Assembly: GCA_003661185.1 (NCBI GenBank)
Contig: QMVQ01000037.1
Location: 1-10,624 of the forward strand
Length of the DNA stretch: 10,624 bases
Direction: 5' to 3'
Origin: Candidatus Alkanophagales archaeon
Lineage (GTDB): Archaea > Halobacteriota > Syntropharchaeia > Alkanophagales > B39-G2
Notes under the pieces: generated by a model
What the model was told of the DNA's origin: nothing
Database searches by the model: none
Seen by the model: only the letters and a program-made list of their open reading frames with translations
Program-made: the position numbers and the translations under genes
Shown: positions 1,952 through 9,899 of the stretch, in pieces
How the letters are laid out: each line of letters starts with the position of its first letter
How positions within the stretch are numbered: the first letter of the stretch is position 1

Positions 1952-3052
1952 CTAAATCATCCTTATGAGCCGCTCAACGTCGCTCGTGAGACTCTTCTTC
2001 GGCGGCGGCACGCAAACTTCCAACTCTTCTTCCTCTTCCCGCCTGCTGTAGGCAATGCTTTCCTCGACGCCTGTCATGATGGCGGTAACCCGGACCCTGC
2101 CGCTATAATTCTCGTTGATTCTTGCGCCCCAGATGACCGTGGCGTTCGGATCTATTTCATACGTCAGGAGCTTCACGATATCGTCAACCTCTTTGATCGT
2201 GAGGTCGGGGCCGCCTGTGATGTGCACCAAACTACCTTTAGCGCCTCGGTAGTCGAGGTCGAGGAGCGGATGACCGAGCGCCGCCCTGACGACCTCCTCG
2301 GCTTTGTTCTGCGACTTCGACGTCTCGCCGATGAGCATGACTGCGATGCCCTTGAACCGCATTATCGCCCTGAGGTCTGCGAAGTCGAGGTTTATCAGCG
2401 AGGGCTGCGTGATGGTCTCGGTTATACCTTTCACGGTGTTCGCGATTATCAGGTCCATCACCTTAAAGGCTTCCTCGACGGGCAAATTCGGGACATACTG
2501 CAAGAGCTTCTCGTTGTCGAGCACAATGACGGTGTCCGCAAACTTCTTCAGCTCTTCAACCCCGTCTTGCGCCTTCTTTATCCTCGCACGCTCAGCTCTG
2601 AACGGCGAGGAGACCATAGCCACGACTATCGCACCAAAATCCTTGGCGACTTCAGCCACGATGGGTGCGGCGCCGGTGCCCGTGCCGCCGCCCATGCCAG
2701 CCGTGACGAACACGAGGTCCTTGCCCCGGAGCGCCTCTTCTATGACCTTTTTATCCATCTCTGCAGCTTTCTTTCCAATCTCAGGCTCTCCACCCGTCCC
2801 CAAACCTCTCGTCAGGGCTTTACCTATCAGTATTTTCTTTTGCGCCTTCGTGTTGTCGAGATGGAGTTTGTCGGTGTTTATGGCAATACGGTCCGCGCCT
2901 TCCACCCTCAGCTCCTCAAGCCGGCTTATTGTATTGTTCCCGGCGCCGCCGATCCCTACGACCGCAACTCGGGGGACCCCGAAATACGACGTTTCGGGCT
3001 CGCTAACTCGGCTCGTGCTGTTCCCGAATATCATCTCCAACTCGTTTATCAA
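1952..3052 (-). CDS. ftsZ2: Cell division protein FtsZ, FtsZ2 type
   Basis: FtsZ is a tubulin-like GTPase that polymerises at mid-cell. FtsZ2-type proteins act in constriction in archaea that carry two FtsZs. Nucleotide-binding parts are [17 protein letters not shown] (about 31-47), the tubulin signature GMGGGTGTG (119-127), the segment [14 protein letters not shown] (151-164) characteristic of FtsZ2, and the T7 synergy loop [10 protein letters not shown] (221-230). An acidic linker (EEEEELE) leads to a short C-terminal peptide [10 protein letters not shown], which may be a partner-binding tail. The open frame begins with TTG at 3052-3050, preceded by GGGGGGAG six bases away. However, an ATG at 3068-3066 has a better Shine-Dalgarno (AGGAGG) and is off by one base because of a run of six G. 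With five G the protein would start [12 protein letters not shown]. Followed without gap by acdB. Confidence 0.95.
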
Positions 3053-5241: not shown

Positions 5242-5314
5242 AGTCCCGTGGTGTAGGGGTCAAGCATGCGGGCCTTTGGAGCCCGCGACGGCGGTTCGAA
5301 TCCGCCCGGGACTA
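5242..5314 (+). tRNA. tRNA-Gln (anticodon TTG)
   Basis: The full cloverleaf is visible. The acceptor AGTCCCG (5242-5248) pairs with CGGGACT (5307-5313), with discriminator A at 5314. The anticodon stem CGGGC/GCCCG encloses loop CTTTGGA with TTG at 5276-5278. The T stem GGCGG/CCGCC encloses TTCGAAT. The D stem is short and contains G-U pairs. The first pair A1-U72 is usual for archaeal tRNA-Gln. CCA is not encoded and there is no intron. The gene ends 2 bases from the spt5 stop codon on the other strand. Confidence 0.97.
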
Positions 5315-5316
5315 TC

Positions 5317-5775
5317 TTACACCTGTTCCTCCTCTCCGCGGCTAAGGACCTTCACGCTGTCGCCCCTGACAGTAATGGGTATAGGAACAACGGCGTCGAA
5401 GAGCTCGATGGTGACCTCCTCACGAGTCTCGTCTACCCGCTTAACACGGGCGCGCTCGCCTTTCAGAGGTCCTGATATGATTTCGACGATGCTACCTTCG
5501 ACGATGCCTGTTATCGAGGGGCGTGGCGTGAGGAAATGCTCTATCTCGCCGAGGCTCGTCGCACCTCGGACCAGCGACCTTGCATGCGGTATATGCTGTA
5601 TTGCTTCCTCTATGGTATCAGGCTTCTCAGCCTCGACGAGCACATACCCCTTCAGGTTATCGGGCACTAAAATCGCTTTCACCCCGTGGTCCTTTTTCCC
5701 ACGTATCGCCCGCTCTATGAGGTTTGCTACCGCCTGTTCCTGATTTACCGTCGTCTTCACGGCATAGATTGACAT
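5317..5775 (-). CDS. spt5: Transcription elongation factor Spt5 (NusG family)
   Basis: Spt5 binds the clamp of archaeal RNA polymerase and keeps it processive; with Spt4 it bridges the main channel. The 152 residues match the compact archaeal form. The N-terminal NGN domain (about 1-85) includes IYAVKTTVNQEQAVANLI and the strand NLKGYVLVEAE. A C-terminal KOW domain (about 92-148) includes EGSIVEIISGPLKGERARVK. The ATG at 5775 is preferred because GGGTG lies upstream; an in-frame GTG at 5781 would add two residues. The gene starts 9 bases after the secE stop, the classic secE-nusG/spt5 pairing. Ribosomal protein L11, which often follows in archaea, is absent here: tRNA-Gln converges instead. 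Confidence 0.95.
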   Translation of the reverse strand: MSIYAVKTTVNQEQAVANLIERAIRGKKDHGVKAILVPDNLKGYVLVEAEKPDTIEEAIQHIPHARSLVRGATSLGEIEHFLTPRPSITGIVEGSIVEIISGPLKGERARVKRVDETREEVTIELFDAVVPIPITVRGDSVKVLSRGEEEQV

Positions 5776-6488: not shown

Positions 6489-7547
6489 TCACCCGATTAT
6501 ATCAATGCCGTATTTCTCTTTCTTGGTAACCTTCCCAAGGATTTGGTCCGAGCGCACGCCCGTCACGATGACCATCGCACGTATCGTGTTTTTCAGCTCA
6601 GGTAGGATTTGGGCGCCCCAAATGATTCGTGCATTTGGGTCCACCATCTTGTAAACCTCCTCGACGACGCCTTCCGCCTCCTCGATAGTCATGTCCTCGC
6701 CGCCACAGACGTTCACGAGCGCCGCCTTCGCTCCCGAGATGTCCACGTCGAGCAGCGGAGAGCGCAAAGCCCGCTTCACCGCCTCCAACGCTTTATTATC
6801 GCCATTTGCCTCGCCCAAGCCTATCATTGCGACGCCGCCCTTCTGCATCACCGTGCGGACGTCTGCAAAATCCAGATTTATCAAGCCGGGCTTCGTTATC
6901 AGCTCGGTAATGCCCTTCACCGCCCGCATTAATACCTCGTCAGCGACCTTGAACGCCACGTTCAGCGGAAGCCGAGGCGCAACCTGCAAAAGTCTGTCGT
7001 TCGGGATTACAATAACAGTGTCAGCGGACTCTCTCAGCCTCTCAAGCCCCAGTTCGGCATTCTCCCAGCGAACCCGCCCCTCGGCGGTGAATGGCATGGT
7101 CACGACCGCTATCGTCAGCGCTCCCGCCTCTGCCGCCGCCGCCGCAACGATAGGCGAGGCGCCGGTGCCCGTGCCGCCGCCGAGCCCGCACGTCACGAAT
7201 ACCATATCGGCGCCTTTGACCACGTCCTTTATTTCATCTATGCACTCTTTTGCCGCTTCCTCGCCGAGCTGCGGAAGGCTGCCCGCGCCGAGCCCTCTTG
7301 TCGTCCTTTTCCCCAAAAGCACCTTTTTGTGGGCGTTTGCATAGAACAGGTGTAAAGCGTCCGTATTCATCGCAATTAGCTCGGCGCCCGCAATTCCCTC
7401 TTCCATCATTCTTTGTATGGTGTTTGTGCCGCTGCCGCCGCATCCTATTACTTTTATGACAGTCTTGGCTCTCTTCAGAATCTCCTCCAGCTCCTCATCT
7501 ACAACCTCTCTTCCTCTACTTACCACCTCGTTGATGATATGCTCCAT
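6489..7547 (-). CDS. ftsZ1: Cell division protein FtsZ, FtsZ1 type
   Basis: A second FtsZ, of the FtsZ1 type, which in two-FtsZ archaea assembles first and helps organise the division ring. The 352 residues contain [18 protein letters not shown] (about 30-47), [28 protein letters not shown], the tubulin signature GLGGGTGTG (121-129), [13 protein letters not shown] in place of the FtsZ2 segment, [13 protein letters not shown], and the T7 loop [11 protein letters not shown] (224-234). GTP-binding and hydrolysis residues look intact. The ATG has AGAGGT upstream and lies 25 bases after the 3' end of tRNA-Leu, so it is almost certainly read from the ribosomal/RNA polymerase transcript. In other euryarchaea ftsZ1 also sits next to secE and spt5, which agrees with the genes downstream here. 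Confidence 0.95.
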
Positions 7548-7572: not shown

Positions 7573-7655
7573 TGCGGAGGGGGGGATTCGAACCCCCGAA
7601 CCCCTACGGGACTGACCCCTCAAGCCAGCGCCTTTGTCCGCTCGGCAACCTCCGC
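7573..7655 (-). tRNA. tRNA-Leu (anticodon GAG), overlapping rpoD
   Basis: Class II tRNA with a long variable arm. The acceptor GCGGAGG (7655-7649) pairs with CCTCCGC (7580-7574), with discriminator A at 7573. The D stem is GCC/GGC. The anticodon stem CTGGC/GTCAG encloses loop TTGAGGG with GAG at 7621-7619. The 14-base variable arm folds as CCC-GTA-GGG. The T stem GGGGG/CCCCC encloses TTCGAAT. CCA is not encoded and there is no intron. The first 36 bases are also the last 12 codons (with stop) of rpoD. A tRNA-Leu is also part of the halobacterial S9 ribosomal operon, so the position is probably old. Confidence 0.96.
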
Positions 7656-8483
7656 AACCACCACCGCCAATTTTACATATTTCCCTCTCAAAGCCCTTGC
7701 AGCTCTCAACACCAGCTCCCAGGCATCATAAGAGCCATCAGACTCAACATTGAAGATAAATGAGTTCTTGTCATAAGACACTTTTATGGCGTCCCTATCG
7801 CAGACATCCTCGCAAAGCTTGCAGAGCGAGCAGAGCTTTTCATCCTTTACCCTCAACACCGTTGTAGCTTCAAGTATTTGCTTTGGGCATTCCTCAACGC
7901 ACTTCCCGCAAAGGTCGCATTTCTTCTCATCTATCTCGATTACTGGCAGGTTTTTATAACCGCATACCGTTGCGGGCTGCCATTTCGCATGTTTCTTGCC
8001 AACGCCGAGTCTTGCAATCGCTTCTAACATTACGCTCTGTCGTGAGATTGTTTTTATCCCGTTTATCCGTGTCTCTCTGGAAATCAGCTTGACGATGGGG
8101 ATGTTCGGATACGGACGGACCTTCTCATCTGACGAAATAAGCTCGTCGGAGTAAACGACACGCTCCCCCACGCTTTCAGGGCTCTGAGCGGAGAGCGTGA
8201 ACGACACTTGGCAGAAGCCGCAGCCTTCGCCTTTGCATTCGCACTCCTCGGGAAATACAAACTCATCTATGTTTTCAGCCCTCAACGGGATGAGCGCAAG
8301 CCTTAACGCCAAAATCTCGTCGAAGAGCGGCGAAGTGTTCTCATAAATATTAACCTCGTCAATCGCAAGCTTCGGAACCTCTGTCAGCATGGCTCTACGC
8401 AGGGCGTTCGCAAAGCTCGGCTCAACGCCCCGCAATATGAATTTGACCTCCATGTCCGTAAGCTCGAGAATCTCCACCTCCAT
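7620..8483 (-). CDS. rpoD: DNA-directed RNA polymerase subunit D (Rpo3)
   Basis: Subunit D dimerises with subunit L and nucleates assembly of archaeal RNA polymerase, like bacterial alpha and eukaryotic Rpb3. The 287-residue form starts MEVEILELTDMEVKFILRGV, with the dimerisation motif ANALRRAMLTEVPKLAID (about 26-42). A ferredoxin-like insert carries two complete four-cysteine sets, CDLCGKCVEECP (Cys189, 192, 195, 199) and CSLCKLCEDVC (Cys218, 221, 224, 228), so two [4Fe-4S] clusters are expected. Cys81, 83, 88 and 91 form a further cysteine group. The start at 8483 was chosen because a longer frame from 8543 would overlap rps11 and lacks family resemblance. The last 11 residues (AEVAERTKALA) are encoded inside the tRNA-Leu gene. 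Confidence 0.95.
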   Translation of the reverse strand: MEVEILELTDMEVKFILRGVEPSFANALRRAMLTEVPKLAIDEVNIYENTSPLFDEILALRLALIPLRAENIDEFVFPEECECKGEGCGFCQVSFTLSAQSPESVGERVVYSDELISSDEKVRPYPNIPIVKLISRETRINGIKTISRQSVMLEAIARLGVGKKHAKWQPATVCGYKNLPVIEIDEKKCDLCGKCVEECPKQILEATTVLRVKDEKLCSLCKLCEDVCDRDAIKVSYDKNSFIFNVESDGSYDAWELVLRAARALRGKYVKLAVVVAEVAERTKALA

Positions 8484-8496
8484 AGCAGCACCCCGC

Positions 8497-8886
8497 TCAG
8501 ACCCTTCTTCCCCGCTTCCCGCCCGGCGGTCTCGTGCCGTCATGCGGTATTGGTGTGACGTCTTCTATCCTTCCAATACGCAGGCCCCCCCTCGCAAAAG
8601 CCCTGATCGCCGCTTGCGCCCCCGGTCCTGGGCTTTTCTCCCGGTTACCGCCCGGCGCCCGCACTTTTATATGAATGCCCACGATACCTTTTTCCTTCAG
8701 CTTCTCAGCAAGCTGAAGGGCGAGCTGCATTGCCGTGTATGGTGAGCTTTCGTCTCTATCTGCCTTTGCTACCATGCCCCCCGAGCCTCTTGCGATGGTC
8801 TCCGCTCCCGTCAAGTCAGTTATCGTGATTATCGTGTTGTTAAACGACGAATATATATGGGCTACTGCCCACTTCCCCTCTACCAT
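8497..8886 (-). CDS. rps11: 30S ribosomal protein uS11
   Basis: uS11 lies on the platform of the small subunit near the 3' end of 16S rRNA. The 129 residues start [20 protein letters not shown], continue with [18 protein letters not shown] and [20 protein letters not shown], and end in the basic tail [15 protein letters not shown]; all are diagnostic. ATG 8886 is preferred, with GGAG four bases before it. A GTG at 8901, one base after the rps4 stop, would add five residues (VGDGA) with no good ribosome site. It is followed by rpoD after 13 bases, in the conserved archaeal order rps13-rps4-rps11-rpoD. Confidence 0.96.
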
Positions 8887-8902
8887 AGCTCCATCCCCCA
8901 CT

Positions 8903-9418
8903 CTACGTCAAACCAAGTCGCTCTGCAATGTCTTCTGAGAAATATCGCACCTCGGGCTCTTCGTCCACAGATACTATATAACTGGGCGCCGTCACCCGCC
9001 GTCCGGCTACTGCAATGTGTCCGTGCACAATTAGCTGCCGTGCCTGTTTCATCGTCTTAGCAAGTCCCTTCTTATACACAATCGTCTGCAAACGCCGTTC
9101 TAAGAGGTCTTCAATGCTTAGCCCCAAAACGTCGTCGACGTCGCCATCTGGCTTCAATATCCCTTTCCTTTTCAAACTCCTTAGAATCCCCTCCCGCTTC
9201 TTTAAGGCGTGCTCGCTGCCCTTCATGCTGGAAAGCGCTGCTGATATCCCTCGAATTTCTCTTCTGTATTTCTTTATAGTCGTTAGCGCCTTGTATATCT
9301 CCCGTTTGTTTTTTAACCCGTACTTCTCGACGAGCTCATGTTCTTCTTGTATTCTTGTTGCTTCCCAAGGATGCTTTGGCGTCTCGTAGGTCTTCCTTCG
9401 CCTCTTCGGGTCGCCCAT
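8903..9418 (-). CDS. rps4: 30S ribosomal protein uS4
   Basis: uS4 is a primary binder of the 5' domain of 16S rRNA and starts small-subunit assembly. The 171 residues have the archaeal form without the long bacterial N-terminus: [20 protein letters not shown], a helical middle, then the S4 RNA-binding domain (about 106-160) with [40 protein letters not shown] and SYIVSVDEE. The ATG has a strong Shine-Dalgarno, AGGAGGTGAG, which lies over the end of rps13 and its TGA. Spacing from rps13 is 7 bases, so tight coupling is expected. Confidence 0.97.
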
Positions 9419-9425
9419 CCGCCGC

Positions 9426-9899
9426 TCACCTCCTCTTCCTTCTAACGCCGACGACAGGACCTCTCCTGCCGGTAGACCGCGTCCTCTGCCCTCTTACTTT
9501 TTGACCGAGTTCGTGTCTTATGCCTTTGTAGCAGCGTATCTTTCTCATGAAGTTTATATCCTCTCTAATAGTCATCAGCAGGTCTGCGCCCAGGATGTGC
9601 TTGTCCTCGCCGGTATAGATATCCTTTCGCCTGTTGAGCATCCAGCCCGGCAACCGCCTCTCAACGCTTTCCAACGCAGTTTTCAGCCGCTCTATCTCCT
9701 CGTCGGAAAGCTTGCCCATCGTTGCATTCGGGTTGATGCCTGCGGAGATGGAAATTGCTCTTGCGACGCGTCGCCCTACGCCCTTTATGCCGCAAAGTGC
9801 ATGCTGCACGCTCTTCCTCCCGTCTAAGTCCGTGTCCACAAGCCTTACTATATGTTTGAGTTCTTCTTCTGTAGCTCCTTCTGCTGCGTCCTCTGCCAT
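9426..9899 (-). CDS. rps13: 30S ribosomal protein uS13
   Basis: uS13 sits in the head of the small subunit and contacts the P-site tRNA and the large subunit. The 157 residues match the archaeal length. Features are an acidic N-terminal extension ([20 protein letters not shown]), the helix-two-turn-helix region with [18 protein letters not shown] (about 37-54), and the conserved basic tail [20 protein letters not shown]. It is the first gene of the minus-strand run. The ATG lies 8 bases after GGGGGGAG. Confidence 0.97.

Follow-up and report, generated by a model that had tools for sequence, protein, structure and literature searches.

An archaeal rpoD gene that ends within a tRNA-Leu gene, and a separate overlap of rpoL with tRNA-Gly in a sister family

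Can the same stretch of RNA serve as the end of a message and as the beginning of a tRNA, and what might this mean for a cell when the message encodes a subunit of its RNA polymerase? This question is raised by a stretch of 10,624 nucleotides of DNA from a Candidatus Alkanophagales archaeon, analysed here at its full length (the window), in which rpoD runs into the gene for tRNA-Leu(GAG) and stops there.

The letters shared by rpoD and tRNA-Leu(GAG)

On the minus strand, the genes follow one another in the order rps13, rps4, rps11, rpoD, tRNA-Leu(GAG) and ftsZ, with ftsZ as the likely next cistron behind the tRNA (Table 1). Sequence and open reading frames place the end of the rpoD frame 36 nt inside the tRNA gene, and the junction reads ...GTG GTG GTT / GCG GAG GTT GCC GAG CGG ACA AAG GCG CTG GCT TGA, where the slash marks the start of the tRNA. 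G1 of tRNA-Leu (7655) is the first base of the rpoD codon GCG, the TGA (7622-7620) consists of U33 and the anticodon bases G34 and A35, and the tail AEVAERTKALA, 11 codons long, is encoded entirely by tRNA-Leu. A preliminary description of this DNA had claimed as much, namely that 11 codons and the stop equal nucleotides 1-36 of the tRNA, that the tRNA starts on a codon boundary, that the stop combines U33 with bases 34 and 35, and that the tail is purely tRNA-derived; the sequence, the open reading frames and the Rfam limits bear this geometry out exactly.

Rfam places the tRNA at 7655-7573 with 49.4 bits, whereas ARAGORN gives 7656-7571, one base more on the 5' side and two more on the 3' side; we set the ARAGORN start aside for that of Rfam, with which the pair G1:C72 and the discriminator A73 agree. 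At the other end of rpoD, the mechanically listed ATG at 8543 falls within rps11, and homologues begin with MEVEILEL, which corresponds to 8483, the likely start. The encoded protein carries the Rpb3/RpoA insert and two ferredoxin-like motifs.

Table 1 Features around the junction of rpoD and tRNA-Leu(GAG) in the window
Feature	Positions	Strand	Remarks
rpoD, archaeal RNA polymerase subunit D, 4Fe-4S domain	8483..7620	-	287 codons + TGA; PF01193, Fer4, PF01000
tRNA-Leu(GAG), 83 nt	7573..7655	-	ARAGORN, Rfam
rpoD/tRNA-Leu overlap	7620..7655	-	last 11 codons + stop = tRNA nt 1-36
rpoD stop TGA in the anticodon loop	7620..7622	-	sequence, ARAGORN, Rfam
TATA-like site AATATGTAAAAT, 8.1 bits, at -26	7670..7681	-	best in the 70 nt 5' of the tRNA; probably not a promoter
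ftsZ	6489..7547	-	ORF + domain matches; start codon 25 nt after the tRNA
rps11 (uS11), upstream cistron	8497..8901	-	stop 13 nt before the rpoD start
rps4 (uS4)	8903..9418	-	S4 domain; name from context
rps13 (uS13)	9426..9899	-	ORF + domain matches

Compared by eye, the RpoD of relatives ends about three residues past the point where the tRNA begins here, with ends of the type ...LSEIVDAL*, and the tRNA-encoded tail replaces roughly these last three residues. An AlphaFold2 model built on a 14-sequence alignment (mean pLDDT 91.4, 86 in the last block) predicts a final helix over residues 254-286 of 287, that is, through most of the tRNA-encoded residues 277-287, and in this model the tail looks tolerable for the protein.

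Two further arrangements were observed in the window. There are two ftsZ paralogues in this one 10.6-kb contig, at 1952-3052 and 6489-7547, one of which sits where other archaea carry rpl18e behind rpoD and tRNA-Leu. On the plus strand, tRNA-Gln(TTG) (5242-5317) ends about two bases from the stop of a convergent Spt5-like gene.

Age of the junction and transcription of tRNA-Leu

As the genome of the window (G000) is a draft in 259 contigs, an assembly or base-calling error could hide a true stop codon before the tRNA, a possibility that the comparison within the genus makes extremely improbable. The available part of PMC10322722 describes Alkanophaga as thermophilic alkane oxidisers and sisters of ANME-1. 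In Candidatus Alkanophaga volatiphilum (G001, locus L105, JAPHEE010000009.1), RpoD is 83% identical to that of G000, tRNA-Leu is identical over its 83 nt, and the protein ends in ...KYMKLKTEI/AEVAERTKALA*, so that the same overlap is found in both of the two Alkanophaga genomes. The four codons just 5' of the tRNA encode AVVV in G000 and KTEI in G001, and because all four residues differ, it is the rpoD frame, and not the DNA alone, that has been held. With two divergent genomes agreeing in this way, we rejected sequencing or assembly error, and likewise chance. The tail itself is uninformative on selection for the peptide because the tRNA does not vary; a single GAG copy of tRNA-Leu was found in each of the two (incomplete) genomes.

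In wider relatives, a tRNA-Leu was sought within 900 nt after the rpoD stop in the best 80 of 223 rpoD loci in named genomes. It was found in 65 of the 80 (61 with a GAG and 4 with a CAG anticodon), and in 4 of the other 15 loci, fewer than 200 nt remain behind rpoD or the contig breaks off. The gap between the two genes is 4-333 nt in 64 of these 65 loci, and the single overlap, of 36 nt, is that of Alkanophaga, which has no counterpart in the other 64. Among 30 loci scanned from 59 relatives, tRNA-Leu lies behind rpoD in L005, L008 and L009 besides the two Alkanophaga loci, with a gap of 0 in L008 and a UAG anticodon in L009, and ARAGORN found no tRNA behind rpoD in the other 25, including L020 with less than 100 nt downstream. 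In L005 (G056), the tRNA-Leu(GAG) about 80 nt after rpoD apparently has an insert of about 40 nt in its D-arm, perhaps an unusual intron. The rpoD case does not extend to family f2, the sister of Alkanophaga that includes Candidatus Methanoxibalbensis (G018) and that we take to be ANME-1, because no tRNA was found behind rpoD in the 21 scanned loci with an f2-type RpoD (L010-L030).

Judged by this distribution, the order rpoD-tRNA-Leu is old. The synteny is conserved, its gap varies, and the RpoD of relatives reaches slightly past the point where the tRNA begins here; the overlap is thus probably the product of an old junction that lost its stop codon and spacer. The preliminary description had named a relative with a stop codon before the tRNA as evidence against its reading. 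Such stops are present in 64 of the 65 wider relatives (best 80 of 223 loci) and absent in the sister species, and therefore date the overlap without refuting it.

Promoters were scored with a motif trained on 67 of the 73 tRNAs of G000 and G001. The two tRNA-Leu(GAG) and four tRNAs with short or unreadable upstream sequence were left out, five flush tRNAs were included, and the underlying list is incomplete, as it misses the G000 tRNA-Pro behind rpoN. The resulting motif, AAAATTTTTAAA, most commonly starts at -36 in the 67 tRNAs. Between -44 and -28, the rpoD-tRNA junctions of the two species score 5.6 and 6.6 bits, at sites that differ and do not align with each other. These values fall between those typical of promoters and of background: 8% and 6% of sampled window positions score at least as high, and among the other 64 tRNAs, 30% and 33% do not surpass them. 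The site AATATGTAAAAT lies at -26, off the usual -36, and the position that aligns with it in the sister species reaches 4.2 bits. Upstream of tRNA-Leu, the motif scan found no tRNA-type TATA box common to both Alkanophaga species.

The seven tRNAs that abut coding genes directly, or lie within them, score below the other 64 (Mann-Whitney p 0.0025), a group that was picked after the scores had been seen, with orthologues counted separately and the purF-like and hisA-like junctions left out. In relatives, rpoD-tRNA gaps of at most 14 nt have a median of -2.75 bits (n=14) and those of at least 45 nt one of 3.1 (n=49; p 0.006), a weak contrast given a motif from another genus and related loci. 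A promoter inside rpoD that makes the tRNA independently of the message had also been named as evidence against the preliminary description. On this point, no site is conserved between the species, but the weak sites in rpoD (5.6 and 6.6 bits) leave room for a promoter. From these scores, it is probable that tRNA-Leu is read through from the rpoD transcript.

rpoL and other genes that end at tRNAs

We read every one of the 57 main loci, from 56 genomes, that a search for rpoL in 59 relatives yielded. In 46 of the 49 loci of family f2 (48 genomes), rpoL ends 15 nt inside tRNA-Gly(CCC), where U13-A14-G15 of the tRNA form its stop TAG, and has the tail AAIV, AAVV or AAMV. Outside the 46 are G024 and G052, with gaps of 24 and 30 nt, and one of two copies in G030, which has the same letters to the TAG and was excluded with its tRNA not recognised. 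Both Alkanophaga genomes have TAG-T and then tRNA-Gly(CCC), a gap of 1 nt, and no tRNA was found behind rpoL in six class- or phylum-level outgroups. RpoL is the partner of RpoD, and in the sister family the putative tRNA-stop device has become fixed at rpoL in a separate event.

Among the 8 codons that precede the tRNA, each of the 46 overlap loci has 3-7 that a single substitution could turn into a stop, so that escape from the overlap by mutation would be easy, yet it is rarely seen. The overlap is also unusually fixed in that the gaps of rpoN and rpl12 to their tRNAs vary. A need for the final residues of RpoL would explain this without regulation; by eye, RpoL in the outgroups extends about as far at this end. 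In genome G007, rpoN/tRNA-Pro and rpoL/tRNA-Gly rank 39th and 40th of 42 in promoter score, and the median over the 46 rpoL-overlap loci is 1.45 bits, compared to 7.0 for the 39 other tRNAs of G007, a value that only one of the 46 exceeds. By these scores, the tRNA is likely read through from the rpoL transcript.

Several features were observed at the rpoL loci. In G024 (L280), the overlap is undone, and an apparent partial copy of the tRNA start, 24 nt upstream, holds rpoL's own stop. ARAGORN assigns introns of 19 to 125 nt to the f2 tRNA-Gly(CCC), with the 5' overlap constant (for example, L217 and L232). Just 3' of tRNA-Gly, many f2 genomes (for example, L218 and L236) have an inverted repeat with A/T runs, TCAAACTTTT...AAAAGTTTGA, perhaps a terminator or processing signal. 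In L207 and L208 (G000:C64 and G001:C22), a gene of the release-factor/Pelota family begins with its ATG one base after tRNA-Gly(CCC); the gene has a sub-threshold Pelota match, and our reading is release factor 1. With the ATG so close, a message without a leader would follow immediately behind rpoL once the tRNA is excised.

Polymerase genes are not alone in this layout. In both Alkanophaga genomes, tRNA-Pro(CGG) begins immediately behind rpoN. A search with rpoN matched 50 of 59 genomes, and in all 30 loci fetched from these, a tRNA-Pro follows at a gap of 0-95 nt. Likewise, rpl12 has TAG-T and then tRNA-Glu(UUC) in both Alkanophaga genomes, with tRNA-Glu present in 28 of 30 fetched loci at gaps of 1-207 nt (47 of 59 genomes matched). 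In G000, DUF447 ends 15 nt inside tRNA-Arg(GCG), with no tRNA behind it in the other 19 fetched loci. A gene that we take to be purF-like is flush on a tRNA in one Alkanophaga species only, and one that we take to be hisA-like is 7 nt from a tRNA in G000. These non-polymerase genes at tRNAs (rpl12, DUF447, purF-like and hisA-like) suggest general compaction and not a polymerase-specific device. Further candidate open reading frames of G007 that run into tRNAs were left out of the counts. For rpoP, PF03604 matched in 6 of 20 genomes, 3 of them over its cut-off. The viral contigs and plasmids searched held no relative.

A putative cleavage mechanism, its alternatives and its parallels

The reading that we favour, with some reserve, is a read-through transcript whose stop codon is supplied by the tRNA and in which the RNase P cut competes with the making of further complete RpoD. 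With the rpoD stop lost at a compact junction, a history suggested by the relatives, translation ends at the first in-frame stop, that of the tRNA, as the sequence itself places it. The rps13-rps4-rps11-rpoD transcript would read through the tRNA, which RNase P and tRNase Z would excise, and the cut at G1 would take the last 11 codons away from rpoD together with its TGA, leaving a message without a stop codon. A ribosome already at the UGA would have made normal RpoD, so that one transcript could give both products in sequence; after the cut, there would be no further stop-terminated RpoD, and tRNA and further complete RpoD would compete for each transcript. The net effect would be a ceiling on RpoD per transcript relative to the upstream ribosomal proteins. 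Stalled ribosomes would need Pelota-type rescue and would be left to Pelota; a Pelota gene and an RNase P RNA gene were both found in the genome. The preliminary description had held that a transcript could make tRNA or complete RpoD, but not both. The geometry, the RNase P RNA, the lack of a conserved TATA box and the overlap in the sister species are in its favour, but the exclusion would hold only once the message is cut, and 'not both' is too strong because a transcript may be translated first and processed later. Its further suggestion, that tRNA supply might be coupled to the assembly of RNA polymerase, gains from the position of rpoL and rpoN at tRNAs and loses from that of the non-polymerase genes.

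A precedent for such damping comes from Methanococcus maripaludis, in which, according to the available part of PMC10450193, rpoDLNP form part of ribosomal-protein operons, where internal termination damps the polymerase genes and their expression stays lower than that of the ribosomal proteins. The same source describes a smaller amount of assembled polymerase in strains that have RpoP in excess. The class of genes and the need to keep polymerase below ribosomal proteins are the same, whereas the means described there is transcription termination before the polymerase gene and that at rpoD a putative RNA cleavage in the last codons. By analogy, the tRNA overlap could serve a similar damping via RNA cleavage.

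The same layout might instead reflect neutral compaction, with the stop lost by chance and the tRNA expressed separately from a weak promoter in rpoD with little mutual effect. Many tight junctions between coding sequences and tRNAs in these genomes, and the promoter-like scores of 8.1 bits at -26 in G000 and of 7.1 and 6.6 bits at -60 and -42 in G001, point this way, but neither site is conserved between species or at the usual -36, and at rpoL the low median of the 46 overlap loci against the 39 other G007 tRNAs (1.45 and 7.0) argues for read-through; we regard this account as possible, if rather doubtful. Selection may, conversely, have used the RNase P cut to keep RpoD, or RpoL in the sister family, low against ribosomal proteins and tied to tRNA processing capacity. 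The assembly platform pairs D with L, rpoN also lies near a tRNA throughout its fetched loci (with a gap of 0 in G000), the 46 rpoL overlaps persist although stops are one substitution away, and polymerase genes in the ribosomal operons of M. maripaludis are damped. The same persistence would be expected, however, if the C-terminal residues were needed, non-polymerase genes have the same layout, the rpoN and rpl12 gaps vary freely, and G024 and G052 do without the overlap, which leaves such adaptive regulation unlikely in our estimation.

In its widest form, which we offer as a speculation that is more probably wrong than right by a good way, tRNA-supplied stops would act as a processing switch on polymerase subunits D and L in Alkanophaga and its ANME-1 sister family, RNase P choosing per transcript between a tRNA and a further polymerase subunit and so keeping polymerase output under that of the ribosomal proteins from the shared operons and tied to tRNA maturation. 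Should excision of the tRNA shorten the messages of rpoD and rpoL, two polymerase subunits and two tRNAs would compete on the same RNA, and RNase P would regulate the supply of RNA polymerase. With 46 of 49 f2 loci overlapping at rpoL, the arrangement is stable over a whole group.

In mitochondrial tRNA punctuation, stop codons are completed by polyadenylation after tRNA excision. This does not apply to rpoD, where a complete TGA lies inside the tRNA; likeness is confined to the layout, with an overlap of 36 nt and an ftsZ start 25 nt after the tRNA. As in the mtDNA of Armadillidium vulgare, cited in the available part of PMC8124441, mitochondrial coding genes are separated or overlapped by excised tRNAs, whereas rpoD draws a complete in-frame stop from its tRNA, in the genome of a cellular archaeon whose RNase P includes an RNA subunit.

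The closest parallel is selB/selC of Alphaproteobacteria, Gammaproteobacteria and Nitrospirae (PMC8124441, available part), where an open reading frame runs in frame into a tRNA on the same strand, as rpoD does in ending within its tRNA. Dyella/Luteibacter have their stop within the tRNA, at 46-48. For selB/selC, processing was proposed to give nonstop mRNA with protein and tRNA as alternatives, and some lineages lost the overlap (Mukai 2021, PMC8124441, available part). SelB has in tRNASec its functional partner, and the whole tRNA is often nested; here, a canonical tRNA meets an RNA polymerase subunit in an archaeon, and tRNA-Leu(GAG) is not a functional partner of subunit D. The titles and abstract openings searched mention no archaeal gene that ends in a tRNA, which is weak evidence of absence. 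The rpoD and rpoL cases are an archaeal variant of the selB/selC-type overlap, with canonical tRNAs and polymerase genes. Their stops lie in the anticodon loop (U33-G34-A35) or D-arm (U13-A14-G15), and in this, and in the fixation at rpoL across a family, they differ from selB/selC as described in the available part of PMC8124441. They suggest a simple rule by which a gene that runs into a tRNA finds a stop at hand in conserved bases of that tRNA, either in U13-A14-G15 or in U33 with a GA anticodon.
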